Below, in pieces: positions 19,638 to 55,983 of a DNA stretch of 64,000 nt (position 1 is the stretch's first letter; every line of letters begins with the position of its first letter). The notes beneath the pieces are model-generated. The model made no database searches and was not told the origin of the DNA. It saw only the letters and a list, made by a program, of their open reading frames with translations. The stretch covers positions 3,100,001 through 3,164,000 of the forward strand of contig NZ_CP132942.1 of the NCBI RefSeq assembly GCF_040359615.1, in the 5' to 3' direction. The translations under genes were made by a program, and so were the position numbers. The DNA is from Tunturibacter psychrotolerans. Lineage in GTDB: Bacteria > Acidobacteriota > Terriglobia > Terriglobales > Acidobacteriaceae.

Positions 19638-19694
19638 GCGAGGAAGATAGGAATTTTTCCAAAAAGATGCCTGCGAGCACAGAAAGTCTGGGAG

Positions 19695-34650: not shown

Positions 34651-35703
34651 TCAGATGACCTGGGCGTCCGGAGTGTTCCTTGCCAGTCTGTAGTTCAACG
34701 AACATACACATCGCTTGCAGATTGCGTTGGTCTCCACATCGAACGAAGCCCTGAACTCTCTTGCCCGATCTCCATTGACTACGTCTTCTAGAGTCGAGTG
34801 AGTCATGTTTCCTATTGAGTTGTGAAAGAAGCAAGGACGGACCTCACCGTCGATTTCAACGACGGCTGAGACCCAGGGAGCGTTGCAAAGGGGAGCCTGG
34901 GGAGAGAGTAGTCCGAGATGCTCGCGGAAGCGACGTGAGATCCTTCGCAGCTTCGCCGCTGACTCGGCAATAAATCTTCGGTTGATGTCCATTTCAAAGT
35001 CTTGAATCATCAGTTCGATTTCAGCTTCAAGATCAATTGTCTCTTTGAGGGTCAGACCAATTTGGTTTTGTTTTTCGGTAGGCCATATCAGAAGACGGTT
35101 GAAGGCCTCGGAGGTTAGATCTGCTGCGAGAAACGAGATGGAATTCAAGCCCCAGGTTTTTGCTGCAGTGACTGTCTCTCGCAGATGACGATGATTTGCT
35201 TTTTGGACGGTGGTTCGGCAAGTTATCGGTATGGATGGATTCCAGCGACGAACGGCAGCGACGCCCTCGTGGATGAGATCGAAAGCTCCATTGACACGGC
35301 GTATACCGTCGTGAACCTCTCGCGGTCCATCCAGCGAAATGATGATGTCATCGAAAAGAGTTGCAACCTCAGAGGCACGCTTCAGCAGCAGGAGACCTGT
35401 GGTCAGTAGAGTTATCCGAATCGGCTGATCGCGGAAAAATGTACAAAGCTCTGCGAGATCACTATGGAGGAGCGGTTCGCCCCCGGTTAAAACTATTTGT
35501 CGAACTCCGAGTCTTTGCAACGAAAGGCGGTGGCGCTCCAGATTCTCTAGGCGAATCTGTTCTTTAGTCTCACGTTTCCAGATATCGCACATGACACAGC
35601 GACAGTTACAGAGGCTATGCACATTCAATATCAAAATCGGCAGCTGTGTGATCCGTTCGGCCTGCGGAAATCGTTCGGTTGATGACTCATGCAGCACTGG
35701 CAT
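34651..35703 (-). CDS. Radical SAM protein with SPASM/twitch-type C-terminus
   Basis: About 350 residues. The cluster motif CxxxCxxC is present in CNCRCVMCDIW, preceded by LILNVHSLCN, and LTGGEPLLH is the usual radical SAM strand. The C-terminal region has further cysteines in the pattern of auxiliary-cluster domains (APLCNAP, EVRPCFFH, CKRCVCSLNY). Such proteins modify peptides or small molecules. The ATG at 35703 with AAGGTGG before it overlaps the upstream gene by 17 bases; it is the last gene of the nine-gene operon. Substrate unknown. Confidence 0.85.
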   Translation of the reverse strand: MPVLHESSTERFPQAERITQLPILILNVHSLCNCRCVMCDIWKRETKEQIRLENLERHRLSLQRLGVRQIVLTGGEPLLHSDLAELCTFFRDQPIRITLLTTGLLLLKRASEVATLFDDIIISLDGPREVHDGIRRVNGAFDLIHEGVAAVRRWNPSIPITCRTTVQKANHRHLRETVTAAKTWGLNSISFLAADLTSEAFNRLLIWPTEKQNQIGLTLKETIDLEAEIELMIQDFEMDINRRFIAESAAKLRRISRRFREHLGLLSPQAPLCNAPWVSAVVEIDGEVRPCFFHNSIGNMTHSTLEDVVNGDRAREFRASFDVETNAICKRCVCSLNYRLARNTPDAQVI

Positions 35704-37636
35704 GTTCCACCTTCTTTCCGCCGACTCGCAGATCTCTTCCAAGAGTTTTTCTCGCCTGGGCCAACAGACTATCAATCGGAGCGCGTAACCATCGCCTTAT
35801 GCCATCTACGAATAGGGGCTGCAGCCCGGCTTGAAGCGAGTTGGGAAGAGAAGCAAATAGAGAATCGCTTGCGAGTTGGACTCTGCCGCCTAATATGACT
35901 AGTTCAACCTGATCTACTGTAAGTTGCGCAACGGTTTCTGCCGGTGTAAGGCCCTTGTCGCGGACTGCGATAAGATCGGCTACGGCGCCCGGACGAAGAC
36001 GCCCCTCCCCGTTCCGGAGACGCAGGACACTGGCCGATCTTGCGGTGACCATGTCGAAGAGAGACTCGGCATCGAGGCCAATCTCATTGCGCGCAAAATT
36101 TATTTCATCGAGCAGATCACCAGCAGATGTGAGTGGAGAATCACTGCCTAGAACGACTGTGTGAATAGATTTGATCAAGGTTGCGGAAAGAGCAGAATGA
36201 AATAGGAATTGATTCGAAGTCGGGCAAATTACGAGTGCTGAGCGACGTTGATTAAGAAGTGAAATTGCTTTGTGATTCAGGGCCAGGCCATGTACAAGTA
36301 CAGTCCGTTCATCGAGAAGTTCCAGCCGATCCAGATCAAAGATCTCTTGTGCGCTTTTTGCATCGACACCTTCAGCGGCGTGAACCACGAAAGGAAGATT
36401 CGGTGGTGTATGGTCAAAGTTGTGTAGGAGATTTGGATCCATGGCAAGAGAGTGTGCCCACCCGAATCTGGCGAGTACACGCACTGGAAAATCAGCAGCG
36501 ACCAGGTCCCGCGAGAGAGGGTTGTGGTGGCAGACCGTAGTCACGCCGCAGAGGAGATTGCGGATCGCTCCCCATCGCAACCGGGTCTGCTTTGGCACCT
36601 TGCGATGGGAGGCAATTGTGGTCGCGTGGGTCCGATGGATCTCTCTCGCCCACTCGGTTGAATTCAGATACGGTCCGACACCGAGATTTGGGAAGAGGCT
36701 GAACTCAAGATGATCGTGAGCGTTGATCAAACCCGGAAGCAATATGTAGCCGGATAAGTCTACGGTTTCCTTCCGCCCTGTTTGGGGCTCCCCGATGAGC
36801 GGCCATTTGGCCGAGAGGGAGCGTATGTGTCCGCGTTCGACCTCAATCGACCCTTCGGTTGCCGACCTAGGTCCGAGAGCATATCTGGCTCCGGAGAGAT
36901 GAAGTGCCTGAGAGCTTTCGCTTGCATCAGAGAGCTTTGATAGGGGCAATCTTTTTTGCAGTTGCAGAATGTAAACAGCAGGCAGGCCGGCGGATTCTTC
37001 ATAGAAAGGTAGTTTGTCGTTTTCTTCGAAGATTTTCCGCTCCTCTAACTCGAAGGTGGGCTGGATGTTCGCAAGCAGTACAAATCCACAAGCTTTGAAA
37101 GTATCGATGATTGCCTGGAGGGAGTGTCCATTGACACGGAGTCTCTCTGTCGATCCATCGTGAGTGAAGGACCTTGTCCAGTCACAAGTGATCGCAGTGT
37201 CCGGATGCATGTCCGTCAAAAAGATGTGGCCGTCTGGACGGGTAACTCGGTATAGCTCCCGAGCGAAGTCCTTCAGGCTTTCGAGATAACTCAAAACGAA
37301 GGAAGACACAACGAGATCGATTGTGCCGTCAGGTATCGGTAGAGCAACGCAGGTTCCCTGCCGCAGGGAGCAAGCTTTACCAATCTTGTTTGCTGCACGA
37401 TGCAGCATCTCTGTCGACGAATCCACGCCGATCAGACTCGCCGCGCCACGTGGCGCTAGGAACTGAAGCCATCGGCCGGTCCCACAGCCGGCATCCAGTA
37501 CGTGCAGGCCGTTGATATCTGGGAGCATCTGACTCAGAAAGCGTTGCTCTAGCATAAGGAGCGGATTAGGCTGCTCATCATAGACCTGCGCCCAAGTATC
37601 GAAGACATCAAGGGAAGACAAAGCGGTTGCAGTCAC
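35687..37636 (-). CDS. Methyltransferase-amidohydrolase fusion protein
   Basis: About 649 residues. Residues 1-225 form a class I SAM methyltransferase (LHVLDAGCGTGRWLQFLAP, DLVVSSFVLSYLE, LYRVTRPDGHIFLTDM). From about 245 a cytosine-deaminase/chlorohydrolase-like amidohydrolase follows: GLINAHDHLEF (metal HxH), VVHAAEG, VLVHGLALN and LGSDSPLTSAGDLL (metal Asp). An ATG at 37684 would overlap the upstream gene by 52 bases; the GTG at 37636 overlaps the upstream stop in the GTGA pattern common in this operon and is preferred. A single protein joining these activities is uncommon and suggests consecutive steps on one intermediate. Confidence 0.82.
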   Translation of the reverse strand: MTATALSSLDVFDTWAQVYDEQPNPLLMLEQRFLSQMLPDINGLHVLDAGCGTGRWLQFLAPRGAASLIGVDSSTEMLHRAANKIGKACSLRQGTCVALPIPDGTIDLVVSSFVLSYLESLKDFARELYRVTRPDGHIFLTDMHPDTAITCDWTRSFTHDGSTERLRVNGHSLQAIIDTFKACGFVLLANIQPTFELEERKIFEENDKLPFYEESAGLPAVYILQLQKRLPLSKLSDASESSQALHLSGARYALGPRSATEGSIEVERGHIRSLSAKWPLIGEPQTGRKETVDLSGYILLPGLINAHDHLEFSLFPNLGVGPYLNSTEWAREIHRTHATTIASHRKVPKQTRLRWGAIRNLLCGVTTVCHHNPLSRDLVAADFPVRVLARFGWAHSLAMDPNLLHNFDHTPPNLPFVVHAAEGVDAKSAQEIFDLDRLELLDERTVLVHGLALNHKAISLLNQRRSALVICPTSNQFLFHSALSATLIKSIHTVVLGSDSPLTSAGDLLDEINFARNEIGLDAESLFDMVTARSASVLRLRNGEGRLRPGAVADLIAVRDKGLTPAETVAQLTVDQVELVILGGRVQLASDSLFASLPNSLQAGLQPLFVDGIRRWLRAPIDSLLAQARKTLGRDLRVGGKKVEHASAA

Positions 37637-39096
37637 AGACTTTCTCGCTTTGGTTTGCGGAGGCTGATGAATTCGTTGGCCCATTGAAGTTCAACCGGAA
37701 AGCGATAAACTCCGAGAGCGTATCGCCAAGCACTGAGAGTTTTTAGCAAAATGCGGCTCCACTTCGGCGCACGGATGTCCTGCACTGTTGGCCATCGCGA
37801 GCCAATGACAATCTCAAAGTTGTCTATGAGATCTTTTGTTTTACGTTGAAGCCACGGAGCTTGTGTGTCGATGCGGAGAGTGAAATCCATCCAACGCTTT
37901 GACGCCCACTCTGCGGGCGTCGATGGCCATGCTATCTGGCCGTCCACGTTGCCGTACATGTCTCCAGGTTGAGGTACCGGCGTGTAGTGGTAGATGATGA
38001 TCTCAGAATCAGGGTTAATCTTCTTCAGTTTGCGAATGAAGGCGAGAGTCTCCCGTGTGTCACGTTCTGGATCGCCGGGGTTTCCGATGACGAAGGAGAA
38101 CTCAGGAATGATACCGAACTGTTTTGTTCGTTCTGCGATTGTGACTGTTTGTTCTGTGCTGATGCCCTTCTTCATCTCTTTAAGAGCCCAGTCAGAGCCT
38201 GACTCTGCGCCGAAGAAGATCATCGTGCAACCGGCGCGTTTGAGTGCAGCAAATGTTTCGTCAGAGTACCGAGACATCACATCGACCCGGGCTTCGCACC
38301 ACCAGCGAAGATTCAAATGTTCAATTCGCTTGGCAAGTTCGAGGGCGTGATCTTCTCTAAGAAAGAAATTCATATCGTAGAACTGAACCGAATCCGCACC
38401 GTACTCGGTCACTAAATGGGAGAGAATGGCGGCGGTACGCTCCGGAGACTCCATGCGCTCTTTGTTCCCGTACGCGGCGTGGACACCACAGAAGCTGCAG
38501 TTAAAAGGGCAGCCAATGCTTGCGTGGTGGACGGCAGTACGTTTCCCAAAAAAAGAAGGGCGAAGATACTTTTCGACAGGCAGTCGATGGAATGGCGACC
38601 AAGGAAATTCATCAGGCCCCTTCATGGGCCGCTCTGCGTTATTCCTCGGGAGACCGAAGATGTCTTTGTAGGAGAGCCCTAGAATGGAATCGAACGCTCG
38701 CTTGCCGCGCATTGCATCTAGAAGTTCAAGTAGGGTGTCTTCGCCTTGGCCGCGAACGATGTAGTCTACATATTTTGCATTGAGCGCGGCATCTGGATAG
38801 ACGGAAGGGAAGTAGCCACCCCACACGATCTTGACATGGGGATAGGCCCGACGTATTTCACGGGAAGCGTCCATCGCCGCGACCATCTGCGGTCCAGGCA
38901 TGACCGAGACGCCAAGTAGTTCAACGTCGTATTGTTCGATTAGCCGCGAAATGGAGGCCACGGGATTGTCATCTACGTTGCCGTCGACAATCTCGTAGTC
39001 TTCGCGGTCCTCAAGTACGGCGGCAATAGCCAATACAGCAAGGGGAAGCCGTCGGTTGCGTGGTTTTGTGGCTCGCGGATTAAAGAGAACGATCAT
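37633..39096 (-). CDS. B12-binding-type radical SAM protein (fifth of the operon)
   Basis: 487 residues. An N-terminal cobalamin-binding-like Rossmann domain (about 1-140; LPLAVLAIAAVLED, VKIVWGGYFPSVYPD, YIVRGQGED) lacks a clear DxHxxG axial-ligand motif. The radical SAM barrel carries CPFNCSFC (CxxxCxxC). The C-terminal segment ALGVYRFPVELQWANEF resembles the ends of the proteins encoded at 43831 and 45327, so the three form one subfamily. Start overlaps the upstream stop (ATGA). Enzymes of this class methylate inactive carbons or rearrange rings; substrate unknown. Confidence 0.85.
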   Translation of the reverse strand: MIVLFNPRATKPRNRRLPLAVLAIAAVLEDREDYEIVDGNVDDNPVASISRLIEQYDVELLGVSVMPGPQMVAAMDASREIRRAYPHVKIVWGGYFPSVYPDAALNAKYVDYIVRGQGEDTLLELLDAMRGKRAFDSILGLSYKDIFGLPRNNAERPMKGPDEFPWSPFHRLPVEKYLRPSFFGKRTAVHHASIGCPFNCSFCGVHAAYGNKERMESPERTAAILSHLVTEYGADSVQFYDMNFFLREDHALELAKRIEHLNLRWWCEARVDVMSRYSDETFAALKRAGCTMIFFGAESGSDWALKEMKKGISTEQTVTIAERTKQFGIIPEFSFVIGNPGDPERDTRETLAFIRKLKKINPDSEIIIYHYTPVPQPGDMYGNVDGQIAWPSTPAEWASKRWMDFTLRIDTQAPWLQRKTKDLIDNFEIVIGSRWPTVQDIRAPKWSRILLKTLSAWRYALGVYRFPVELQWANEFISLRKPKRESL

Positions 39097-40091
39097 TTTT
39101 GTACTCGGGCACTATAGATTCGAAATTGAGATGGTTCACGTCTACCCTGCATTTTGGCGAATAATGGCCGCATGAGCCAGCGGATGCCGTAACTCGGCGT
39201 GTGCACCTGCCAATGAAGTGCGAAGCGCGCTTCCAGTCTTTGGAGACGTTGATCGGTGAGGAATTCGAGACTGTTGAGACTGTCGGAGGCAATGCCATAA
39301 CTTTGAGTGAAAGACCTCCGACGTTCGATTACCATTTGTTGACCGCTTGCTTCGTTGCTATACCATGGGGTGTCAGCAATAAGAATTGTGCCCCCCGCGC
39401 GCGTGCAACGTAAGGCTTCAGCAATGGTCTTCTCGTAATCTTCGGAATAGTGAAATGAAGCGTTGAAAATGACAAGATCGAATGCGTCGTCCATGAGGGG
39501 AAGCACGTCCAATTCGGCCTGTACGCGCGGAAAGAGCGTAGTAAGCTGCTTCTGATAGTGAATTGCGGCGCCAAGCCCGTCTCTGTCGTTGGTAAGCAGA
39601 TCCACTGCCACAGGCGCGTGCCCTCCGAGAGCGAGCCGATAGCTCATCCATCCGTTACCTGCGCCGAGGTCCAAAATTCGAAGCCGCTTTCTGTTATCGA
39701 GTTGCAAGTCAGGGAGAATATGTCGCTCGATATAACGAAACGTCTTTGCACGTATGATCCATTGTTGACTGTTGCTTCCTGACAGATCGCGATAAGGTAG
39801 CGCGAAATAGTATTTCGCATCCACGCTGCCACGGCCTTCCGCAGAGCGAATAAACTCATAGTCACGAATGAAGCGGGAGAAGTGAGAGACGCGTTCGGGA
39901 AGCAAAGCTCTCCAAATACCGCCCTCGCTCGACAGCTTTAAGCAACAGTCGGAACAGACCAATATGGCTTCAGCAACATTCGTATACGGCAAACTATTGA
40001 TCCATCCCCTGCATCGAGGGCATCGAAGACGAAAGTCGTTGTCTTCGTCCGCACGAAAATCGATGGATTCTTTATGAGCCATCGCGATCAT
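39093..40091 (-). CDS. SAM methyltransferase with N-terminal zinc-ribbon-like segment
   Basis: 332 residues. The first 55 residues hold CPRCRGW and CSDCCLKL, a four-cysteine ribbon like that in some Trm112-type or RlmA-like methyltransferases. The class I methyltransferase domain has LRILDLGAGNGWMSYRLA, DVLPLMDDAFDLVIFNASF and TRAGGTILIADTPWYS. Starts and ends with four-base overlaps with its neighbours, so it is strictly coupled in the operon. Substrate unknown. Confidence 0.82.
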   Translation of the reverse strand: MIAMAHKESIDFRADEDNDFRLRCPRCRGWINSLPYTNVAEAILVCSDCCLKLSSEGGIWRALLPERVSHFSRFIRDYEFIRSAEGRGSVDAKYYFALPYRDLSGSNSQQWIIRAKTFRYIERHILPDLQLDNRKRLRILDLGAGNGWMSYRLALGGHAPVAVDLLTNDRDGLGAAIHYQKQLTTLFPRVQAELDVLPLMDDAFDLVIFNASFHYSEDYEKTIAEALRCTRAGGTILIADTPWYSNEASGQQMVIERRRSFTQSYGIASDSLNSLEFLTDQRLQRLEARFALHWQVHTPSYGIRWLMRPLFAKMQGRREPSQFRIYSARVQK

Positions 40092-40906
40092 ACCTGGACT
40101 CTCTCGAAGCTAATGAGCATGTGATCGCCAATCACTCGAAACCCCGGGCACGCCGAGAGGGCTTTGTCGATCGTATCCATGACATGCAGCAAGTTTGGAA
40201 ATTTGCGGATCCATGGTTCAACGTAAGAAGGAGGGACGGTGATGCCGATGCCGACGCAGGAACGCATAACGAAGGCGGGCGAGAACGACTTTTGCAGCTG
40301 ACGGAGTGTTGGATAGTAGACATCGACAACGAATTCACCTACTTTAGCTGCAGCATGGCCCGAGCATCTGCGAAACGCTTCGTGGGGCCTTCCGTGAATC
40401 AGAAACCAGATGATTTCTGAGATGCAGAAGCGGGTTGAAAGACAAATAATAAGGGGAGCACCCGGCGGAATGAGAGTTGCCAAGTTTTCTGCTGTTTGAC
40501 TAAGATCAGCGACGCAATTCAGACCTGAAAAGTTTGAGAAGACCCCGTCGAAAGCGCTTTCCGTTCGAATCTCAGCAATTTGCTCGATTGGTAGTTGGGC
40601 GAACTTCACGGAAGTAGTGGGAGCTTCGGTACGAAGGCGCTGCTGGGCATACTCGATCATTTGTTCTGAGGCGTCGCAGGCAACCACAGAGACTCCTTTC
40701 CCAGCAAGGAAAAGGGCGTCTTCGCCTGTACCACAGTTCAATTCCAGAATGTGGTCTCCGGATCGAAACGCCTGCGCGATCACTCTCCAGACCGCATTTC
40801 GTTGAGCGCGCCCGATGAGAGATCTTGTAAACAGATCGTCGTAGCGCCTCGCCAATTGGTCGAAGGCGAGAATGGCTTGTGGCTGGGCGGTCGCCATCGG
40901 AATCAT
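40088..40906 (-). CDS. Class I SAM-dependent methyltransferase
   Basis: 272 residues. Motifs are HILELNCGTGEDALFLAGKG, VVACDASEQMIEYA and FDGVFSNFSGLNC. The Gly-rich loop (ELNCGTGED) is typical of UbiE/BioC-like small-molecule methyltransferases. ATGA overlaps at both ends tie it to the upstream radical SAM gene and the downstream methyltransferase. Substrate unknown. Confidence 0.83.
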   Translation of the reverse strand: MIPMATAQPQAILAFDQLARRYDDLFTRSLIGRAQRNAVWRVIAQAFRSGDHILELNCGTGEDALFLAGKGVSVVACDASEQMIEYAQQRLRTEAPTTSVKFAQLPIEQIAEIRTESAFDGVFSNFSGLNCVADLSQTAENLATLIPPGAPLIICLSTRFCISEIIWFLIHGRPHEAFRRCSGHAAAKVGEFVVDVYYPTLRQLQKSFSPAFVMRSCVGIGITVPPSYVEPWIRKFPNLLHVMDTIDKALSACPGFRVIGDHMLISFERVQV

Positions 40907-42300
40907 GCTTCCACCTCGGTCTGCGTTGAGAGCAAAGCCGCACGGGCGAGCGCGATCTCGCGGCGCAGGCTGGACGCGCGGTCGGATTCTGCGTCAGGAG
41001 TTTCGGCCATGCGAGCGAGTTGGACCTCATCTCGAAGGAGTTTGTCTGCGTAGCTGTAAAATTTTTGCGAGTGACGTCCCTTAATCTTGATCTCGCGATC
41101 CGAACTAACCCCCCACGGCTTCAACTGAACGAGGCGACTGGAGATTTTCTGGTAGTAGGGTGTCCCTTTGATGGGATAAGAGACGGTAGTGAAGAATACA
41201 TCTGGTTTGGAGATGCTGACGTGCTTGATCGTTGCCTCGATGTCTTCTAGCTCTTCACCTTCGTAGCCCCACATAAGGAACATGCCGCTTTCGATGCCTC
41301 TTTCGCGGCTCATAGCGACAGCTTGTTGTACCTGCTCAATTTTTACTCCACGGTCCATGGAGTCGAGGATGCGTTGCGACCCGCTTTCAGAGCCGATCCA
41401 GATCCGGAAACAACCAAGTTCAGCGAGAAGGTCAAGCATCTCTGGATTCAGACGATCTGCTCGAGAGATGCATTCAAAAGGAATGCGAAGGCCGCGCAGC
41501 CGCATCTCTCGCGCGTAATCGCGAAGCCATTGATGATTGATAGTAAAGACGTCGTCAGATACCCAGACCATGTCCGGAGAATAAGTTTGGAGGAGCCACT
41601 CCACTTCATCGACGACGAGCCGTGGAGTACGACGGCGATGAGTTTGGCCGAAGACTTGATGGCTGCACCAACGACATTTATAAGGGCATCCGCGAGCCGT
41701 AATGAAGTTGATCGAACCTTTACCATGTGCGTCGCGCCATGTCTTGACGTAGCGGGCAATATCTATAGCGTGACGAGCTGGCCATGGTTGACTATCGAGA
41801 TCGGCTATCTGATTACGCGGTGGGTTTTCCTGCATGTTTCCGGTGGCATCAAGGTAGGCTAGTCCGGAGATGGTAGTGCATGCGGCGGTGTCATTAGCGC
41901 GAAAAGCTTCGAGCAACTCCTGCATTGTGAGTTCACCCTCACCAAAGACGACATAGTTCGCGCCCGACTGAAGATACTCAAGAGCGTACGCACCTGGTTC
42001 GGGGCCGCCTACGATCGTCTTCCAGCCTGCCTCATGCGCTACGCTCAGAATTTCTACTACATTGCTTCGTGTCATGAGATTGGCATAGATGCCAACGACC
42101 GAGGGTGTCTCGGTGCGCAGGTGATTGAAGAGCGCTTCACGACTGGAGAACGTGGTGTCGAAGACATCTACATCAAATCCTTGCTTCTGCAGATGAGAGC
42201 ATAGATACAAGATTCCGAGTGGGGCGTAGGGCTTCAGAATCTGAAGCTCCTTGGGGTCTTCATATAGGAAGTAGCCGTGAGTTAGTAGAAGCTCTGCCAT
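40903..42300 (-). CDS. B12-binding-type radical SAM protein (fourth of the operon)
   Basis: 465 residues. The N-terminal B12-binding-like domain begins AELLLTHGYFLYEDPKELQ and contains IVGGPEPGAYA and VFGEGELT. The radical SAM core has CPYKCRWC. It is a close paralogue of the next protein upstream (42301-43803): both start with a LTH-Y motif, share the ISRAD/QSRAD, GSESGSQRILDSMDRG and SYPIKGT/SYPLPGT regions. It begins one base after the stop of that gene. It probably acts on a related intermediate. Confidence 0.86.
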   Translation of the reverse strand: MAELLLTHGYFLYEDPKELQILKPYAPLGILYLCSHLQKQGFDVDVFDTTFSSREALFNHLRTETPSVVGIYANLMTRSNVVEILSVAHEAGWKTIVGGPEPGAYALEYLQSGANYVVFGEGELTMQELLEAFRANDTAACTTISGLAYLDATGNMQENPPRNQIADLDSQPWPARHAIDIARYVKTWRDAHGKGSINFITARGCPYKCRWCSHQVFGQTHRRRTPRLVVDEVEWLLQTYSPDMVWVSDDVFTINHQWLRDYAREMRLRGLRIPFECISRADRLNPEMLDLLAELGCFRIWIGSESGSQRILDSMDRGVKIEQVQQAVAMSRERGIESGMFLMWGYEGEELEDIEATIKHVSISKPDVFFTTVSYPIKGTPYYQKISSRLVQLKPWGVSSDREIKIKGRHSQKFYSYADKLLRDEVQLARMAETPDAESDRASSLRREIALARAALLSTQTEVEA

Positions 42301-43803
42301 TTATACTTGCCCCTCAGATGAGAGTAGCGTTTGCAGAGGAACAAACTTGTGTTTGCCTGAACCAGCGACCATCGCATCGAGGCAGAATGTTGCCGCGGAG
42401 TTTCTGCTGACGGCTTCAAGCTCAAAAACACGCTGCCAAAGAGTCACTAGGTCAATTGAATTCGCGACGGGGTCAGGACCCTTTTTCCAAGAGTCGACCT
42501 CAGCGTGAAGCGCGGTTCGTAGTGCCATGTAAAAGTCATTGTTATAGGCGGCGGAAAACATGACGCACAGGTCGTCACTATCGGTCCAATTTCGTTTGGT
42601 TCCGATCTGTTCCTGTACGCGCTCATAGAACGCTGTCCCTGGAAGTGGATAAGAGAAAGAGATGCCGATATCATCTGGGCGCATGCTACGTACTAGGCCA
42701 ATAGTCCCTTGAATGTCTTCCCATGTTTCGCCTGGGTAACCAAATTGCAGGAAAAAGCACGCGCGCATACCATTATCGGAAAGCAGGGTACGTGCCGTAA
42801 TCACGTCATTGACGGTTAATCCCTTGTCCATCGCATCGAGAATTCGCTGCGAACCAGATTCGACCCCCATCCATATCTCAGTGCACCCTGCTCTTTTGAG
42901 TCCCGCAACAGTCTTAGGTGTCATTAGATCGGCACGAGATTGGATCTTAAAAGGGAGAGCACATTCCATCGTTTCAATCTCGTCTGCAAGGTCTTGCACC
43001 CATTGATGGTTTAGTGCGAATACATCATCGCCAAACCAGATGTGCTCAACACCATAAACTTCTTTCAGCTCACGAATCTCAGCTGCTACGGCTTTGGCCG
43101 AGCGGATCTGAAACTTGTTGCCAGAAATTGGTTTTGCACACCAGTTACATCGGTAGGGACATCCGCGACTAGCTACGATGTTTGTTGAAAAGTGACCGTG
43201 TGCGGAGGACCACGCCTGGCGATAAAGTGCCAGATCAATCAGTTCGCGTGAGGGGCGCGGCAGACTATTCCATGAGGGGTTCTTTGGGATGCCGCCTGCA
43301 CTCTTTGATAGGGCCCCTCCCGCGTCAAGATATGCGAGCCCTGGTATGTCCAAGTGTGGGTCACCGGATAGAATCGCGGAACACAGAGCTACGAGCGTTT
43401 CTTCAGCTTCACCCAGCAAAATGAAATCGACGTTGTTGCGGAGGTAGGAGTCGGCCTGATCTGTCATGTCCGAACCGTGCGCTATTACAACTGCACCAGA
43501 TTGCTTTGCTTGGTGAGCGAGTTGCCAAGCGAGTTGGCGCATGCGCGTGAGGCACATTTTCGAGAGAAAATTGAAATCATCTTCGTAGATCACCACGAGC
43601 TTAGGGCCGTGCTCCAGCAAGGCCGCTGTAAAGCCCGAGTTGGGATCTTCGAGCATGGTATCGAACACGGCGACAGCGATATCTCCGGCTCTTAGAGCGG
43701 ACGCAGCATAGAGCGTACCCAGAGGCGGATACGGCTGCATCTTTCGCACCTGCTTGGGATCGTAGGGGAGATGGTAGGAATGTGTTAGCAGAACGTCAGC
43801 CAT
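42301..43803 (-). CDS. B12-binding-type radical SAM protein (third of the operon)
   Basis: 500 residues, paralogue of the protein at 40903-42300. CPYRCNWC is the iron-sulfur motif; the N-terminal domain (DVLLTHSYHLPYDPKQV, VIAHGSDMTDQADSYLR, LGEAEETL) has the B12-fold. SQRILDAMDKG and QFGYPGETWEDIQ are typical of BchE-like and related enzymes. A gap of 27 bases separates it from the upstream gene, the only non-overlapping junction in the operon besides the one-base abutment that follows. Confidence 0.86.
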   Translation of the reverse strand: MADVLLTHSYHLPYDPKQVRKMQPYPPLGTLYAASALRAGDIAVAVFDTMLEDPNSGFTAALLEHGPKLVVIYEDDFNFLSKMCLTRMRQLAWQLAHQAKQSGAVVIAHGSDMTDQADSYLRNNVDFILLGEAEETLVALCSAILSGDPHLDIPGLAYLDAGGALSKSAGGIPKNPSWNSLPRPSRELIDLALYRQAWSSAHGHFSTNIVASRGCPYRCNWCAKPISGNKFQIRSAKAVAAEIRELKEVYGVEHIWFGDDVFALNHQWVQDLADEIETMECALPFKIQSRADLMTPKTVAGLKRAGCTEIWMGVESGSQRILDAMDKGLTVNDVITARTLLSDNGMRACFFLQFGYPGETWEDIQGTIGLVRSMRPDDIGISFSYPLPGTAFYERVQEQIGTKRNWTDSDDLCVMFSAAYNNDFYMALRTALHAEVDSWKKGPDPVANSIDLVTLWQRVFELEAVSRNSAATFCLDAMVAGSGKHKFVPLQTLLSSEGQV

Positions 43804-43830
43804 CGACTGGCCTCCCCTCTCTTTATCTGG

Positions 43831-45333
43831 TCAGCATGCATTGGCGGGTTCCTTTGGAAGCTCTTGGCCAGTCACCAGTGAACGACGGAGTACTATGTGT
43901 TCGGATATGTTAGAGAGCCAGAGTTCCCAAGGGAATGAGTAGTTACTCGAACGGAGTCGCCACCTGATGGGCGCTTGAACGATAAACCTCACGGTGCGTC
44001 GTAGCCGTGAATAGCTATTTTGCTGGCGATCAATTTGATTGTTGAGGAGAAAATATCTGAGCATGCGTTGAAGTCTCGCTAACTCGTTGCCCTTAAGCCA
44101 CGGCAACATGTTTGCTCCCAATGGCATGTCCATCCATTCACGTAGATTCTGGGGCTCAGGGACACCAAGTTCTCGCAGTTGAGGCCAAATCGGAATTCCT
44201 GGATACGGAGTGAAGATATTTGGAGAGAAGCTGACGTTGGGGAACTGGCGGCCGATGTCGCTCATTGTCTGAAAAGTGATAATTCGATCCGCTTCTGTCT
44301 CGCCCGGATAACCGAAGATAAGATTGAACGTGACACGAATATCGCCCAACTGAGCCTTGCGCGCAGTTTCGTACATTTCATCGACACGCTGATGACGCTT
44401 ATTCATAAGCTTGAGAACGGAGTCCGATGTCGACTCGGTGCCGAAGCCCATGTGTGAGACACCGCTAGCGCCTAAGAGCCGCACATCATCTTCACTCATG
44501 CGGCATAGGAAATCTGTGGAGGCTTGGAAGGTCCACTTAAACTTGACTCCCGAATCGATGATGCCACGGGCAATCTGGAGTGCTCGCGGTAGCTGAACCG
44601 GGAAGTTAGAGTCCAGCAACGCTACTTCGTCGATGCGATACCGAGTTACTAGGTCAATCATCTCAGCCACAGTCCGGTCCGCCGAGAGTGCATTAAATCT
44701 GCGTTTATAGAAGATCATGTCCGTGCAGTAATTGCATGCGTAAGGACAACCAACGCTGGTGGCATAGGCGAGTTTGCGAACCCCAGAGATCTTCTCGTAA
44801 GCCTCAAAATTAGCGAGGTCGAATGCGGGGAGCGGCAGGGAGTCAAGAGGTTCTACTCTACGATCAGCATTGTGGACACGTCGCCCATTGCTTTTCCATG
44901 AAAGTCCCGCGATGTTGTTGAGGGATCTATGTTGTGCCAATGCTTGAACTGTTTCTACAAGTGTTATTTCACCCTGACCACGAACAACCATATCCACGAA
45001 GCTCTCGCTTAGGGTTTGGTCTGGAAGAAGAGAGGGATGCCATCCACCAAAAATAATCGGAAGCCACGGAGTATGGTTTTTGATCGTGTTTGCGACCTCT
45101 ATAGCGCCGCGGATCATCGGCCCCGTCAAAACGGAGATTCCAACGCAGAGAGCGTCTACAGACTCGCACTCGACGCGAGAGAGGTAGTTCGGCTCGATGG
45201 CGGCGTCGATCAGGACAGCGTCGAAGTTAGCTTCGCGTAGGCTGGCAGCAAGTGCGAGTAAGCAAAGAGGTGCGCCGAGCGGAGGTCCGTCATAGGGCGG
45301 ATAAAAGAGAACGACCTTACCTCTGCTCAGCAT
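43831..45333 (-). CDS. B12-binding-type radical SAM protein (second of the operon)
   Basis: 500 residues. B12-fold domain with GAPLCLLALAASLRE, IIFGGWHPSLLPDQTL and VVRGQGEITLVE; radical SAM motif CPYACNYC. It is a clear paralogue of the product of 45327-46844: GISVLTGPMIRGAI versus GISLVTGPMIRETV, GGWHPSLLP in both, and IFTPYPG in both. Like that protein it ends in a terminal Ala-Cys. The start overlaps the preceding gene by seven bases. Confidence 0.86.
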   Translation of the reverse strand: MLSRGKVVLFYPPYDGPPLGAPLCLLALAASLREANFDAVLIDAAIEPNYLSRVECESVDALCVGISVLTGPMIRGAIEVANTIKNHTPWLPIIFGGWHPSLLPDQTLSESFVDMVVRGQGEITLVETVQALAQHRSLNNIAGLSWKSNGRRVHNADRRVEPLDSLPLPAFDLANFEAYEKISGVRKLAYATSVGCPYACNYCTDMIFYKRRFNALSADRTVAEMIDLVTRYRIDEVALLDSNFPVQLPRALQIARGIIDSGVKFKWTFQASTDFLCRMSEDDVRLLGASGVSHMGFGTESTSDSVLKLMNKRHQRVDEMYETARKAQLGDIRVTFNLIFGYPGETEADRIITFQTMSDIGRQFPNVSFSPNIFTPYPGIPIWPQLRELGVPEPQNLREWMDMPLGANMLPWLKGNELARLQRMLRYFLLNNQIDRQQNSYSRLRRTVRFIVQAPIRWRLRSSNYSFPWELWLSNISEHIVLRRSLVTGQELPKEPANAC

Positions 45334-46844
45334 GCGGCCTCGACCTGCTCGGGGCTGGGCTCCAATCGGCGCGCATCGACGACTGGTTTGAATCCCGCGG
45401 TCCTTGCTTTTAGCTTGTCATTCAACCAGAGCTCGGCCGGAAAACGATACAGTCCATGATCAAGTCGGAAACGCGCTGGAAAAGAAATGCATTTCTGAGC
45501 GAGACGAGTGATGCGGGTTCGGCGGTCAACTCCGATCGGAATCCGATCAAAAGCGATTCGAAGGTAATCGCGCATAATTTGTAATTCTTCGTGATCACGT
45601 CCGTTCAGCCATGGGAGCTTGGTATAGCGTGGAAAAAACTCGGCCCATTTTTCGAGCGAGTCGGGGACTTCTATCCCAAGCTCGGCGGCCCTGTTCATTA
45701 CGTTGGTTCCGGGATAGGGAGTGAAGATATTCGTCCAGAACTCGGTGCCTGGAAAACGCCGGCAAACATCCATAATAAAATTCATGGTCTCTCTACGTTC
45801 TTTGGGTCCCTCTCCAGGGTAGGCGAAGATGATGTTGAAAGAGGGGCGCATTCCTGCGGACAGACATCGTGCCGCGCTCTCGTAGATATCCTCAAAGTTT
45901 TGAAATGTCTTGTTCATAGCCTTCAAGATCTTCGGAGACCCGGAGTCTACACCTTGACAGATTTGGTGAAGTCCGCTGCGGCGCAACAATTTCAGATCCT
46001 CTTGAGAAAGCCGTGAGGTGAGATTTGTGGTTGCTTGAATGCTCCACTGAAACTCTGCGCCTGCTCGCACCAGACCTTCGCCTATGGCTCGTGCGCGATC
46101 GAGATCCACGAGAAAGTTATCGTCGACGATCCAAAGCATACTCAGGTTGTACCTTCGGCTCAGGTCAACAGTCTCTTCAACGAATTGCTCTGCTGGAAGA
46201 GCGTTCCATTTGCGCTTATAGACCGCACCGTTAGTGCAATAAGCGCAATCAAACGGACAGGCCAAGCTAGAGGTGTACATCGCCCAACGCTTCCCACACA
46301 TTCGTTCATAGGCATCGAAATCTGCGATTTGATAGGCCTTGGGAGGCTGCTCTACGATGGGCCGCAGTGCACGTTCGGGCGTAAATGTGAGTTTGTTATC
46401 TCGCTTAAAACCGATACCCGAGACGAAGTCCGGAGCGGACTGATTCTCAATGTGTCCGACCAGCTCAAGGAAGGACTCTTCTCCCTGTCCGCAAATGACG
46501 TAGTCGATGTATGGGGCTTCAAGTGTCTGTGTAGGTAGAAGGGAGGGGTGCCAGCCGCCGAGGACAATAGGGAACTTGGGATCTCGAGCTTTGATTGCTT
46601 TGGCAATCGCGACAGTTTCCCGAATCATTGGTCCGGTCACCAAAGAAATCCCGAGACAGATCGCATCCTTCACTTCTTCTAGGACGCGTAGCTTATAGTT
46701 CGGGGTGATCGTAGAGTCGATGAGCACAACCTCATAACCAGCGCGGATCAGCGGAGTGGCAACAGCGAGAATACCTAGGGGCGCTGTGGCATCGGAGCTC
46801 GCGAAAGATGGAAAGAAGAAGACGACTTTGCGGGCTTTAGGCAA
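45327..46844 (-). CDS. B12-binding-type radical SAM protein (first of the operon)
   Basis: 505 residues. TTG start preceded by GAGGGA. The B12-fold domain holds TAPLGILAVATPLIRAGYE, VLGGWHPSLLPTQTL and YVICGQGEESFLE; the radical SAM motif is CPFDCAYC. The C-terminal LYRFPAELWLNDKL segment is shared with the second and fifth radical SAM proteins. It opens the nine-gene operon; the promoter must lie in the 118 bases before it, shared with the divergent HPr-kinase-like gene. No axial-histidine motif (DxHxxG) is visible, so cobalamin, if bound, may be base-off without a protein ligand. Confidence 0.86.
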   Translation of the reverse strand: MPKARKVVFFFPSFASSDATAPLGILAVATPLIRAGYEVVLIDSTITPNYKLRVLEEVKDAICLGISLVTGPMIRETVAIAKAIKARDPKFPIVLGGWHPSLLPTQTLEAPYIDYVICGQGEESFLELVGHIENQSAPDFVSGIGFKRDNKLTFTPERALRPIVEQPPKAYQIADFDAYERMCGKRWAMYTSSLACPFDCAYCTNGAVYKRKWNALPAEQFVEETVDLSRRYNLSMLWIVDDNFLVDLDRARAIGEGLVRAGAEFQWSIQATTNLTSRLSQEDLKLLRRSGLHQICQGVDSGSPKILKAMNKTFQNFEDIYESAARCLSAGMRPSFNIIFAYPGEGPKERRETMNFIMDVCRRFPGTEFWTNIFTPYPGTNVMNRAAELGIEVPDSLEKWAEFFPRYTKLPWLNGRDHEELQIMRDYLRIAFDRIPIGVDRRTRITRLAQKCISFPARFRLDHGLYRFPAELWLNDKLKARTAGFKPVVDARRLEPSPEQVEAAC

Positions 46845-46962
46845 TTCGATCCCTCACTCATTTTGGACGATATGACTAGCGGCGGCAGCAGTTGTCATAT
46901 CCATGTCAGCGCTTTGTAAAGTTTTTCGGGGGTGGTGAAAATCCCGTATCCCTTGCGATAGA

Positions 46963-47964
46963 GTGAAGTTCGGCGGTGTTCCGATGAAGTCAGTTTCGGT
47001 CGATCCAGCGATTCTGCCCTATGCCCAAGAGCTTCGTTTCGCGGGTGTGGTGTGTGATCTGATCACAAACTCGTTCGAACTACGAGCTCTACTAAGCCAG
47101 CTTTCCCACGTCGAGAAATGCGAACCTGGAAATCGATTTAGCATGCGCGTTGTAGTGAACGAATCTTCATTCGATCCGATTGAAGAGCCCCACTTCCGCG
47201 GTTTACGCCATGTCGTGACAGCTTCGTTTGGCACTGGCAACATCTTTATCTTCGATGTGTTGCGCCGCACACTTAGCGCCAGTATCTCGAGAGTCGCAGC
47301 TACAGACCTCCGTTTCTGGAGGGAAAAGCTTATCCCAATCTCTCTGGGAGTGTTAGGTGCAGCCATGGGGTTGGTTCCCATGCATTGCGCGTGTCTTGAG
47401 CGGAGTGGTGACGGACTACTAATAGCAGGCTTGTCAGGTGCGGGAAAATCTACGTTATCTGTCGCCCTTGCACAAAACGGATTCAGCTACGTCTCCGATG
47501 ATTGGACCTATATGTCACGGCATCAGAGCTCTCTGGTAGCGTTCGGCACATCAGCTCCAGTCAAGCTGTTGCCAGATGCTACCAATCACTTTCCTAGTTT
47601 GACGAGCTATTGCCCACAGAAGTCAATGAATGGAGAGTTAGCCTACGAGGTTGACATCGCCGACGCATTCTCGGTCCGAATTGAAAGAGCATGTGAACCG
47701 CGATGGGTGATTTTTTTGGAGCGAATACTAGATTTCAAGGTTGAGTTCGCTTCCGTGGCGTCGAGTAAAGCTAGAAATTATCTCAATTCTAGCGTGGAGA
47801 GATTGCCCACGGAGCTGTATGAAGCTTCTGTGATGCGAGATCTCACTCTCGAAATGGTATCAAGACTACCATGTTGGTTGCTCCGGTATGGAGGAACTCC
47901 TCAGGTCGCCGCCGAGTATCTTGTTGAGTTTGTCGCTAATCAGACGCGGGAGATATTTGCTTGA
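46963..47964 (+). CDS. HPr-kinase-like P-loop protein
   Basis: 333 residues. The C-terminal half resembles the HPr serine kinase/phosphorylase catalytic domain: LVPMHCACLERSGDGLLIAG, then the P-loop GLSGAGKST near residue 157, and FSYVSDDWTYM. Relatives of this kind (HprK-related kinases) occur in exopolysaccharide loci together with a nucleotidyltransferase, as here. GTG start at 46963; an ATG at 46984 is an alternative. The next gene overlaps its stop (TTGA). No HPr gene is adjacent, so the substrate is unknown. Confidence 0.75.
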   Translation: MKFGGVPMKSVSVDPAILPYAQELRFAGVVCDLITNSFELRALLSQLSHVEKCEPGNRFSMRVVVNESSFDPIEEPHFRGLRHVVTASFGTGNIFIFDVLRRTLSASISRVAATDLRFWREKLIPISLGVLGAAMGLVPMHCACLERSGDGLLIAGLSGAGKSTLSVALAQNGFSYVSDDWTYMSRHQSSLVAFGTSAPVKLLPDATNHFPSLTSYCPQKSMNGELAYEVDIADAFSVRIERACEPRWVIFLERILDFKVEFASVASSKARNYLNSSVERLPTELYEASVMRDLTLEMVSRLPCWLLRYGGTPQVAAEYLVEFVANQTREIFA

Positions 47965-48350: not shown

Positions 48351-48538
48351 CTGACCAACCCAATGGCTGGATAGCCTTTTACAAATAAGTGACAAATAGC
48401 ACATTGCACAATGACAACTAAACCAAGTGAGTCAACTAAGGTCAAGAGCATTGGATATGTCTACATTCCAGTCTCGAAATGAATGGCGGATGTACCTTTT
48501 GATGATGTTCGCAAAACCAGGAAAAGGTGGTGTCGTGA

Positions 48539-48907: not shown

Positions 48908-48909
48908 CA

Positions 48910-49380: not shown

Positions 49381-49419
49381 TCACTGGTAAAAACACCAAC
49401 ATGAAGGAGAGTGCTGCGA

Positions 49420-50724
49420 ATGAACTACCAATTGGCGGAGGCAGTGATTGCAACCTTTCGACAAGAAGATCCGAGCACCCACCATGAAGCCCTTTCCAAG
49501 TTTAATTACCGGGCGTGGCAGGGGACTTACAGGTGGTTGGATGCCAGTGGCCTCGCGCTTTATTTGTTGAATCGCCTCGAAGTCTTAGGCATTCAAGCAG
49601 CAATTCCTGGGCCCGTTTTGCTTCGTCTCCAGGAGAATGCAGAAGATAATCAGGCGAACACCATGCACCTGTTTCAAGAGTTTATGGTGATTAATAGAGA
49701 GTTCACGAGAGTGGGTCTGTGCTACGCCAACCTTAAAGGCTTCACTTTGGTTCCCGATGCATTCAGAGAAGTCGGGCAACGTCTTCAGCTCGATCTAGAT
49801 TTTTTGGTAGACCGCTCTCATATTTTTCAGTGCCAACGGACGTTAGAGCGCCAGGGGTATTTGCTGACCGGGGAGGGACCTAACGTAAAGGAGTTTAAGG
49901 CTGGTAATGGACGGTTGCCCAGTTTGAAAGATCTCTATAAGCCTAAACTTCAACGTTGCGTAGAAATTCACTTCGACGACGTTAATGGCTCAGCTGGAAG
50001 GGCGTTCCGGCACGATAGGTTAGCCAGAGCGGGTCTAAGGCGCTGGGAAGACTTAGAACTGCCAATCCTCTCTGATTGTGATCGGTTTATTGCGCTTGCA
50101 GATCACTTATTCAAACACCTCAAGGGTGAATGGACGCGTGCGTCGTGGATTCTTGAATACGTCAACTTCGTCAACGTTAACGAAGAGAATTATGCACTGT
50201 GGGCCGAGGTTCGGCGGTGTGCGTCGGAAAGCGAAGAAACCAAGCTGGCAATAGGGGTTGCGACACGGGTTTCGCTGCAGATGTTCGACATACGCCGGAT
50301 GCCGGACGCGCTGGCCTGGACAATTCGGGAACTGCCTCCGACGGTTAGTCTGTGGCTAGATAGGTATGGAAAAAAAGTCGTCTTTGCGAGGTTCCCTGGA
50401 ACAAAGCTCTATCTATTGCTTCACTGGGCCATGGCGCGCGATGGAATTGTGGGATCCCGAGAGGCTAAAAGCCCGTTTCCTTTACATAGACCGGCGAGAA
50501 TCACTGTCAAGAACCCGAGTTCAAGTTTACTAGTGAACCTAGGCAAGGTGCTCGAGGAATTCCGGTTCTTTCTGTTTAGGTTGTACTTCCATCTTGAGCA
50601 AGGTTGCTACTACATGCTCGAAGCAGCCCACTGGAAGAGGAGCGTCGCGTTCTTACGAAAGGCAGATCCGCACCAGGGTGAGCTACAGATAAGAAGTCTC
50701 GATACTTTAGAAAGTAAGGAATAG
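49420..50724 (+). CDS. Nucleotidyltransferase-family protein
   Basis: 434 residues of the large nucleotidyltransferase-fold family found in exopolysaccharide loci. Likely metal-binding residues lie in LQLDLDFLVDRSH, after YANLKGFTLVPDAF; CVEIHFDD follows. AAGGAG stands ten bases before the ATG; a GTG three codons earlier sits too close to it. The HPr-kinase-like gene upstream is the usual companion of such proteins. The group transferred is unknown. Confidence 0.75.
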   Translation: MNYQLAEAVIATFRQEDPSTHHEALSKFNYRAWQGTYRWLDASGLALYLLNRLEVLGIQAAIPGPVLLRLQENAEDNQANTMHLFQEFMVINREFTRVGLCYANLKGFTLVPDAFREVGQRLQLDLDFLVDRSHIFQCQRTLERQGYLLTGEGPNVKEFKAGNGRLPSLKDLYKPKLQRCVEIHFDDVNGSAGRAFRHDRLARAGLRRWEDLELPILSDCDRFIALADHLFKHLKGEWTRASWILEYVNFVNVNEENYALWAEVRRCASESEETKLAIGVATRVSLQMFDIRRMPDALAWTIRELPPTVSLWLDRYGKKVVFARFPGTKLYLLLHWAMARDGIVGSREAKSPFPLHRPARITVKNPSSSLLVNLGKVLEEFRFFLFRLYFHLEQGCYYMLEAAHWKRSVAFLRKADPHQGELQIRSLDTLESKE

Positions 50725-53676: not shown

Positions 53677-53784
53677 AACTATCCATGCTGAACCTACAAG
53701 TTACAGCAATTCAACTCGCGTGTGGCTGCAGCTCTTGACAGTTATCTGGAAACAAACCTACGAGCGACTACCGAGGTGTAAGCA

Positions 53785-55068
53785 ATGCACAATCTCTTAG
53801 AGCCGACATCTCGAGCGTTTCCACTAAGCCAAGACGTGAGTCCTGCAGATGTTGTGAAGAGACCAACCTGGATTGCGAACGCGTCGTTGTTTTGGGATAA
53901 TCGGCATCTGATGCTTCGTGTGGCGGGAGTCGTCTTCGGACTTAGTCTGCTACTCGCGTTTACGCTACCCAAAGAGTATGAATCTGGCGCGCGACTTATG
54001 CCTCCCGAACAGGGTGGAAACGGCGCAGCGATGCTTGCTGCACTAGTTGGTAAGAGTTCGGCGAGCGGTCTGGCAGGCCTAGCGGGAAGTCTCATCGGAG
54101 CGAAAAACAATAGCGCCTTGTTCGTTGCTCTATTGCATAGTGGAACAATATCTGGTCATCTCATCGATAAGTTTGATCTGCAGCGTGTATATCATAAGCG
54201 ATATCGAGATAGTACGGCTAAACGACTCGCACATTTGACCAAGATAACCGAGGATCCTAAGAATGGCGTAATCACAATCGTTGTGACAGACGAAGATCGC
54301 AATCGCGCAAAAGAGTTAGCTCAGGCTTATCTCGATGAGCTAAACGGACTAGTCGCTAGAGTCAACACTTCATCTGCTCATCGTGAACGTGAGTTTATTG
54401 AACAGCGACTCAGCACCGTCCAGGCAGAACTACAACGTGCCCAGCTTGAACTCAGTGACTTCTCCAGCAAGAACACTACGATTGATCTAAAGGAACAGAC
54501 GAAGGCTACCGTAGACGCCGGAGCGAAGCTTGAAGGGCAGCTAATAGCGGGCGAATCTGAACTGAGCTCGTTGCGTCAGATTTATGGCGATCAAAATGTT
54601 CGAGTTCGTGCGGCGGAGGCAAGGGACGCGATTCTGCGACGCGAGCTACAGCGTGCGAACGAACAGAGTAGCCAGGGAGCAGAAGGTGAGAATCTGGATG
54701 TGGCTCATCCATACCCCGCATTAAGAGATCTCCCTCGACTGGGCGTGCACTGGGCGAATCTTTATAGAACTGTTCGTATTCACGAGACGGTATTCGACCT
54801 GCTTTCAGAAGAATATGAAACGGCTCGTATTGATGAGGCCAAGTCGATTCCAACGGTCGGGATTATAGACTTCCCCAGCCTTCCTGAGCGAAAGTCTGGT
54901 CCCCATCGATTGTTAATAGCTCTGACCGCGACTGTGTTGTCAATCATCCTGACGGCAATATACCTTTTGGCGAAGCAATTCTGGGAGGAATTGGATGCTT
55001 TCGATCCACGACGAGAACTAGTTATTCACATCAAGTCGACAATAACCAGCGAGCGGGTTCGAAAGTAG
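53785..55068 (+). CDS. Wzz/GumC-type chain-length and export protein
   Basis: 427 residues with membrane helices near both ends (about 45-63, VAGVVFGLSLLLAFTLP, and about 375-397, LLIALTATVLSIILTAIYLL). A long coiled-coil periplasmic part lies between (ERQL-type helices around 195-295). This is the Wzz/polysaccharide co-polymerase layout. No fused tyrosine kinase domain is present. It works with the SLBB channel to set polymer length and drive export. Confidence 0.88.
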   Translation: MHNLLEPTSRAFPLSQDVSPADVVKRPTWIANASLFWDNRHLMLRVAGVVFGLSLLLAFTLPKEYESGARLMPPEQGGNGAAMLAALVGKSSASGLAGLAGSLIGAKNNSALFVALLHSGTISGHLIDKFDLQRVYHKRYRDSTAKRLAHLTKITEDPKNGVITIVVTDEDRNRAKELAQAYLDELNGLVARVNTSSAHREREFIEQRLSTVQAELQRAQLELSDFSSKNTTIDLKEQTKATVDAGAKLEGQLIAGESELSSLRQIYGDQNVRVRAAEARDAILRRELQRANEQSSQGAEGENLDVAHPYPALRDLPRLGVHWANLYRTVRIHETVFDLLSEEYETARIDEAKSIPTVGIIDFPSLPERKSGPHRLLIALTATVLSIILTAIYLLAKQFWEELDAFDPRRELVIHIKSTITSERVRK

Positions 55069-55121
55069 GGATTGAGCAATTATTGTTGGCATGGAATGCA
55101 CCCTCGGAAGAGCGAAATTAT

Positions 55122-55973: not shown

Positions 55974-55983
55974 GAGCAGAGTT

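Follow-up and report, generated by a model that had tools for sequence, protein, structure and literature searches.

A conserved nine-gene radical SAM operon of Acidobacteriota, tentatively placed in a dispersed pathway to an exported, glycosylated product

Introduction

The cobalamin-dependent radical S-adenosylmethionine (SAM) enzymes BchE, HpnJ, BzaD, MgmA, OxsB, TokK, CysS and TsrM combine a Rossmann-type N-terminal domain with a radical SAM barrel carrying a CX3CX2C motif, the architecture shared by the proteins described here. Radical SAM enzymes with this B12 fold perform chemistry that is otherwise hard, and few have known substrates. Several can be encoded together, and in the available text of PMC8992657 the asparenomycin cluster holds TokK and two more B12-dependent radical SAM genes. 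A second point of reference is provided by the toxoflavin and pseudoiodinine operons, which unite GTP cyclohydrolase II, a deaminase and methyltransferases according to the accessible portion of PMC9911603. Here we analyse nine minus-strand genes, named I to A, at positions 34651-46844 of a 64,000-nucleotide stretch of the Tunturibacter psychrotolerans genome (the window, meaning the whole stretch analysed).

The operon is an uncharacterised, widely conserved biosynthetic unit. From sequence comparison we tentatively propose, at somewhat less than even likelihood, that it supplies the radical chemistry for a larger and dispersed pathway, whose exported product would be a small molecule or lipid-linked glycoconjugate bearing sugar and methyl groups; the product class is assigned with moderate to low confidence. 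Five B12-fold radical SAM paralogues would thereby act in one pathway, conserved in cultured soil Acidobacteria. The preliminary description knew of no characterised pathway with this composition. None was found in the open-licence PubMed Central literature either, which is not proof of absence, and the gene set is not described in the available parts of PMC11796369, PMC8992657 and PMC9911603.

Organisation of the operon

By Pfam domain content, the nine open reading frames (ORFs) encode six radical SAM proteins, three methyltransferase domains and one amidohydrolase domain (lengths in amino acids, aa):

45327..46844, minus strand: gene I, B12-binding-fold radical SAM protein of 505 aa, first gene of the operon, TTG start (PF04055 73 bits, PF02310 67.8 bits, both over cut-off)
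43831..45333, minus strand: gene H, B12-binding-fold radical SAM protein of 500 aa, 38% identical to I (Pfam, pairwise identity)
42301..43803, minus strand: gene G, radical SAM protein of 500 aa with a degenerate B12-binding fold (Pfam)
40903..42300, minus strand: gene F, B12-binding-fold radical SAM protein of 465 aa, 35% identical to G (Pfam, pairwise identity)
40088..40906, minus strand: gene E, class I methyltransferase of 272 aa (PF13649/PF13847; best NCBIfam match CpaM, 65.6 of 180)
39093..40091, minus strand: gene D, class I methyltransferase of 332 aa with an N-terminal, zinc-ribbon-like CxxC...CxxC segment (PF08241)
37633..39096, minus strand: gene C, B12-binding-fold radical SAM protein of 487 aa, distant paralogue of I and H (Pfam; NCBIfam HpnJ, 118.7 of 577.6)
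35687..37684, minus strand: gene B, fusion of a class I methyltransferase and an amidohydrolase, 665 aa as listed (Pfam)
34651..35775, minus strand: gene A, radical SAM core with a C-terminal SPASM domain, both over the Pfam cut-off (PF04055 53.6 of 29.5 bits, PF13186 48.0 of 21.5)

Coordinates and strand agree with the preliminary description, as do its seven overlapping or abutting junctions out of eight and the single 27-nucleotide (nt) gap between H and G (I/H -7, H/G +27, G/F 0, F/E -4, E/D -4, D/C -4, C/B -52 and B/A -89 nt). Later starts would shrink the two longest overlaps to -4 and -17 nt: B probably begins at GTG 37636, which gives a 4-nt overlap and 649 aa, a common length among its homologues, and A probably at ATG 35703. 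Tight spacing and conserved gene order uphold the claim of a single unit and suggest co-transcription. A promoter and terminator scan gave chance-level results (5 promoters versus 8.8 in shuffled sequences; 11 terminators versus 11.4). The whole 5.64-Mb genome has 25 radical SAM (PF04055) matches, six of them within the 12.2-kb operon, far above the 0.05 predicted there by an even spread.

As stated beforehand, Pfam finds no non-ribosomal peptide synthetase or polyketide synthase domain in the nine genes. Among the best 25 NCBIfam models per protein, none was matched over its cut-off, and single-family labels for the nine proteins were therefore dropped. Within these models, the best match of the B12-fold proteins was BchE for F (155.8 of 481.35); I matched BchE best (113.5 of 481.35) and TIGR04072 at 100.4 of 360, while G reached 114.6 of 577.6 with HpnJ and 82.4 of 500 bits with the AprD4 family model.

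B12-fold paralogues and the cobalamin loop

All six radical SAM proteins of the operon contain the CX3CX2C cluster motif, and all five B12-fold proteins pass the PF04055 cut-off. The motif is kept in relatives of C (23/23), F (33/34), G (33/33), H (10/11) and I (21/21). The CxxC pattern of D recurs in only 12 of 23 relatives, so the zinc-ribbon-like segment is not defining for this methyltransferase. Both sets of counts omit loci L014, L020, L033, L036, L037, L038 and L046.

The preliminary count of five B12-fold proteins held for C, F, H and I, which score 67.6, 57.6, 62.0 and 67.8 bits against a Pfam B12-binding cut-off of 32.1; G, at 21.9 bits, fell below it. A GG loop, GGWHPS in I, is present in 92/92 C-, F-, H- and I-type sequences and in 0/34 G sequences. 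This count leaves out L014, L020, L033, L036, L037 and L038, and L046 overlaps L030 of the same genome, so that its I-type and G sequences are doubled among the 92 and 34. These data suggest that G may not bind cobalamin. G and its relatives would also be suited to testing how cofactor use is lost or altered in a B12-binding fold.

Pairwise identities separate the two proposed paralogue groups (I/H 37.8%, I/C 28.1%, H/C 29.4%; G/F 35.1%; 20-23% between groups), and together with the tree they agree with an origin by repeated duplication. In a FastTree phylogeny of 126 sequences (midpoint root, several weak inner nodes; the same six loci and sequences outside 400-700 aa left out), F and G had parted, and C had separated from H/I, before the spread over the phylum. 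The H/I split is the youngest duplication and is placed in the lineage that led to the window's family and a second family (f29). Genes at distant loci labelled I or H at 30-35% identity form their own clade beside C (support 0.90) and are therefore not true I or H.

Among solved structures, F is nearest by sequence to 9ccb (MgmA) and 6fd2 (AprD4), and the nearest folds of G include MgmA, OxsB, TsrM and CysS. VIA-align 2 ranks AprD4, a sugar diol dehydratase, first for G by 3 Z units, whereas Foldseek ranks TsrM and MgmA above it; the closeness of G to AprD4 is not unanimous between methods. These rankings point in opposite directions on the main rival to our proposal, which is that the operon modifies a surface polysaccharide or lipid-linked oligosaccharide, with radical SAM enzymes deoxygenating or C-methylating sugars of a product that stays on the cell. 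We regard this as possible, but on the doubtful side. A plasmid search with G returned 151 records, all distant homologues below 60% identity. When a distant G served as query, homologues were numerous and some carried names from other phyla; these came without gene context and were not used further. The repeated radical methylation suggested in the preliminary description is a putative activity and is not supported as it stands: G, the sole B12-fold radical SAM protein at the reduced loci, has the altered cobalamin loop and comes closest to a sugar dehydratase by VIA-align 2.

The fused hydrolase of B

The predicted structure of B (pLDDT 90.2, pTM 0.89) has a hydrolase half with the HxH, H, E, H, D residue set of 5'-methylthioadenosine (MTA)/S-adenosylhomocysteine (SAH), or adenosine-type, deaminases. 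The metal and catalytic residues concerned (H323, H325, H435, E438, H465 and D515) are kept in 94-100% of 31 sequences. An acidic residue follows three positions after an invariant Trp in 11 of 12 hydrolases, and HMMER aligns this W-x-x-[DE] with the WPAE stretch of 3lnp, in a sequence alignment only. We take the Glu of WPxE in MTA/SAH deaminases to bind ribose. The closest named relative of B, from Edaphobacter lichenicola X5P2, is 90% identical, which marks the genome as Edaphobacter-like. Of the 18 family genomes that have a match, 15 carry the fusion; hydrolase and methyltransferase are separate adjoining genes in L030, L041, L042 and L043. A plasmid search with a stand-alone hydrolase returned three records, all distant homologues.

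For this half of B alone, an alternative role would be to destroy inhibitory co-products of SAM chemistry (5'-deoxyadenosine, SAH or MTA), with the methyltransferase fusion serving product clearing. The closest folds and profile matches, apparently MTA, SAH and adenosine deaminases, speak for it, as does the aligned W-x-x-acidic motif. Other enzyme families of the operon would yield SAH and/or 5'-deoxyadenosine, which also counts in its favour. However, compared with 4dyk the hydrolase lacks about 44 residues between metal-binding strands, in a stretch that presumably holds the SAH-binding arginines, and it is retained beside G, D and E at reduced loci, where less SAM chemistry remains. The cut-offs of the adenosine-type deaminase models listed also lie far above its scores (PRK07228 40.4 of 522, PRK09045 56.2 of 540, PRK06038 33.9 of 609). 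We consider a clearing role unlikely.

Distribution and natural variants

Across 396 Acidobacteriota genomes, B is matched in 27 (E <= 1e-30), F in 41 (E <= 1e-70) and G in 40; F and G cross-match, so that 41 counts genomes with either. A match to F or G is present in 25 of the 27 B genomes (exceptions G066 and G116). The complete set of nine stands together at eight further loci (L013-L017, L024, L033 and L036), with H moved in L024. Within the window's family, the operon or its reduced form is found in 18 of 38 genomes (reduced in three) and is absent from 20. Relatives in named genomes comprise five close matches and one partial methyltransferase match (L038, left out of gene-content claims); L034 and L035 duplicate the records L013 and L015, and the locus mapping does not include them.

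Reduced gene sets occur across Acidobacteriota. Six loci (L018-L023) are complete except for H, an unlinked H-like gene being present in four of the genomes without H at the locus (G094, G155, G163 and G337), and D is missing in L025 and L026. Loci L027-L029 retain only G, D, E and the hydrolase, together with RibA, GT1 and GT87 genes, and G is their sole B12-fold radical SAM protein. Because this G nests within the window's family in the tree, the reduced variant probably arose by loss. The preliminary suggestion that the paralogues act in successive steps is not implied by paralogy, given that three loci hold only G and six otherwise complete ones lack H. Since such variants (no H, no D, or only G, hydrolase, D and E) drop single enzymes, steps become assignable by comparison.

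Co-distributed partner genes

The pathway probably extends beyond the operon. A GT87/PD40 membrane protein is encoded in 16/18 operon-bearing versus 0/20 operon-free genomes of the family. Sugar O-methyltransferase homologues (10/18; reference protein 81.3 bits over the TIGR04371 cut-off of 44), a flavin-reductase-like protein (11/18, one a fragment with a stop; borderline at 27.2 of 27.0 bits) and a PhyH-type oxygenase (11/18) are likewise found in 0/20 operon-free genomes. Fisher tests for these genes, which ignore relatedness, gave 7e-9 to 9e-5. In L078 and L085, the operon is adjoined by these partner genes, by RibA and by an ABC transporter that resembles MsbA but scores under the MsbA cut-off. 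In the organism's own genome, the GT87, sugar O-methyltransferase and flavin-reductase-like genes lie near 5.27 Mb (L068), and near 1.44 Mb (L080, C1:1436000-1455999) PhyH is accompanied by another copy of the sugar O-methyltransferase gene. At the latter locus cobM, cobK and cobF, about 6 kb and several genes from these copies, pass NCBIfam cut-offs; the organism therefore has at least part of the B12 pathway.

Of the product types named in the preliminary description, the small molecule thus gains support from the co-distributed glycosyltransferase, sugar O-methyltransferase and oxygenase-type genes and the exporter linked in relatives. The list names concrete partners, some of them unlinked and so out of reach of a survey confined to the operon, and it suggests that this phylum, whose chemistry is little known, exports the product. 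The sugar O-methyltransferase and GT87 would also suit a modified surface glycan.

The same partners bear on a membrane-lipid pathway, whether to membrane-spanning iso-diabolic, ladderane-like or hopanoid-like lipids. Acidobacteria make unusual lipids, and HpnJ and the ladderane-type B12 radical SAM model TIGR04072 rank among the better NCBIfam matches of those that miss their cut-offs. Those matches are all far below cut-off, the operon is absent from 20/38 genomes of the same family, and the partners are of glycosyltransferase, sugar-methyltransferase and oxygenase type, so we judge a lipid product very unlikely.

RibA (GTP cyclohydrolase II) homologues stand beside the cluster at seven loci (L018-L021 and L027-L029), and the three tested are all over NCBIfam cut-offs. 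Among 23 genomes, PF00925 has 3-4 matches in G094, G155, G359, G130 and G049, which carry RibA beside the cluster, and 1-2 in the other 18. In the G130 homologue (L028:9837-10484) a single in-frame TAG breaks the gene into two ORFs; it may thus be inactive or hold a sequencing error.

Neighbourhood of the operon

Upstream of gene I, the plus strand carries:

46963..47964, plus strand: HprK-like kinase, divergent neighbour (NCBIfam HprK_rel_B 44.9 and HprK_rel_A 43.2 bits, both under the cut-off of 200)
49411..50724, plus strand: PF14907 nucleotidyltransferase (93.5 bits, cut-off 31.2)
50725..57153, plus strand: exopolysaccharide-type genes, next in the row after the kinase and nucleotidyltransferase (SLBB export protein, Wzz/GNVR-like, GT2 by eye, GT4)

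The HprK-like kinase gene, with BLAST matches at 14 mapped loci, is probably associated with the operon, and the nucleotidyltransferase possibly so. PF14907 is found in 18/18 operon-bearing and also in 12/20 operon-free family genomes, and is thus less specific as a partner. Some lasso-peptide clusters use an HprK-like kinase and a PF14907 nucleotidyltransferase for decoration. The operon could by analogy belong to a pathway for a ribosomally synthesised and post-translationally modified peptide, matured by the SPASM and B12-fold proteins and decorated by these neighbours. A and the HprK-like protein are weakly similar to SynChlorMet-cassette proteins, all under cut-off. Against such a pathway, no ORF of at least 20 aa in 46840-48560 stands out by eye as a precursor, in line with the preliminary description (no genome-wide precursor search was made). 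Matches to a recognition element, protease or lasso cyclase are also absent among the neighbouring genes scanned. Together with the occurrence of PF14907 in operon-free genomes, this makes a peptide product highly improbable.

The exopolysaccharide-type genes, similar to those in L070, L071 and L079, favour the modification of a surface polysaccharide. Outside the family, glycan-type genes were identified at 9 of 30 loci (BLAST/Pfam, a minority of ORFs scanned): GT4 or GT2 by BLAST in L030, L040, L043, L054, L057, L060 and L063, an O-antigen ligase in L040, a flippase in L041, and an epimerase and PIG-L in L042. Weighing on the other side, no exopolysaccharide gene is labelled within 20 kb at L022, L025 and L026. 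At L059 and L062, three further candidates that by eye resembled chain-length or polymerase proteins were dropped for want of any Pfam match. A surface glycan would also leave unexplained both the adenosine/isocytosine-deaminase-type hydrolase and the extra GTP cyclohydrolase II.

Other genes of the window were also noted. A 129-aa ORF at 47961-48350 (+) separates the HprK-like gene from the cupredoxin-like one and has counterparts of 42-51% identity at the equivalent place in L013-L016; a PqqD-like label given by position was dropped, as it has no Pfam or NCBIfam match. Cupredoxin-like and cytochrome c-like genes (by eye; 48539-49380, +), between the HprK-like and nucleotidyltransferase genes, recur in L015, L016, L023, L024, L029 and L079, with a possible part in electron transfer. 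A Ser/Thr-kinase-like TPR protein (by eye; 31274-34567, +), convergent with the operon's last gene, keeps its place in L013-L016, L033, L036 and L037, and not in the other mapped loci. Farther away, positions 12507-21300 hold, by eye, CitE-like lyase, MaoC-like hydratase, CoA-transferase, permease, MmgE/PrpD-like, thiamine-diphosphate-enzyme and isocitrate-lyase-type genes; with the LysR-type gene behind it, the row resembles a branched-dicarboxylate (itaconate-like) degradation cassette (by eye, from the ORF list). A 2083-aa ORF at 4306-10557 (-) combines Ser/Thr-kinase-like, ATPase/GAF/PAS and sigma-54-activator-like parts (by eye).

Proposed pathway

Gene content, conservation, co-distribution, the metal-site residues of B and the altered B12 loop of G are direct observations. 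On this basis, we propose a model in which a small polar core is the substrate of the B12-fold proteins. C, F, H and I would C-methylate it if they bind methylcobalamin, G, with its altered cobalamin loop, would dehydrate or rearrange it, and A would contribute an oxidation or coupling of the SPASM type. Methyl groups from SAM would come from D, E and the N-terminal half of B, and the C-terminal half of B would take the amino group off a nucleoside- or nucleobase-like intermediate. The core is perhaps nucleoside-like, the target of the fused deaminase-type hydrolase, and its source in some relatives may be a dedicated GTP cyclohydrolase II. GT87/GT1, the sugar O-methyltransferase, the PhyH-type oxygenase and an MsbA-like exporter, linked or unlinked, would complete and export the product.

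Several observations weigh against the proposal of an exported glycosylated product. No enzyme of the operon has a characterised close relative. By ORF list and Pfam, RibA is absent from the window's operon, so a GTP-derived core is argued from relatives, and the genome has only two RibA matches, the same as seven operon-free genomes examined. The shortening of the B hydrolase leaves its substrate uncertain. Since 15 of the 18 operon-bearing genomes belong to one genus, co-distribution is phylogenetically dependent; moreover, GT87 is missing in 2/18 and the other accessory genes in 7-8/18. Outside the family F/G often occurs without B, and the glycan-type genes at 9/30 loci fit a surface glycan equally. 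In the reduced-variant genomes the absence of A and C applies to the locus.

A bolder version of the proposal, which we think quite unlikely, would make the product a new class of secreted, glycosylated nucleoside- or pterin-like Acidobacteriota metabolites. Its core would be built by a team of B12-fold radical SAM paralogues; G, no longer able to bind cobalamin, would have taken up dehydration or rearrangement, and the fusion would couple methyl transfer and deamination of the same nucleotide-derived intermediate.

Comparison with described systems

While the B12-fold proteins share the overall architecture of cobalamin-dependent radical SAM enzymes, no listed family cut-off is reached here (BchE, HpnJ, BzaD, ApyD, AprD4, MgmA, TIGR04072), and G differs further in the absence of the GG loop. 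Compared with the radical SAM 1,2-diol dehydratase AprD4 (6fd2), G stays far under the family cut-off, and TsrM and MgmA rank higher by Foldseek. B has its metal and catalytic residues and its fold in common with MTA/SAH and adenosine-type deaminases (TM0936, 4f0r, 4gbd, 4dyk) and with isocytosine and guanine deaminases; it differs by its shortening relative to 4dyk and by the methyltransferase fusion.

At the level of whole clusters, the carbapenem systems, as far as the available text describes them, are alike in having several B12-dependent radical SAM genes together. Here, however, the nine genes include no carbapenem core gene and instead encode five B12-fold proteins, a SPASM protein and the hydrolase fusion. 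The toxoflavin-type operon has a GTP cyclohydrolase II, absent from the window's operon, and in the accessible portion of PMC9911603 the pseudoiodinine operon has a RibD-type deaminase and no annotated radical SAM or glycosyltransferase gene. The likeness to these operons lies in the reduced acidobacterial variant, which brings together RibA, the hydrolase and two methyltransferases.

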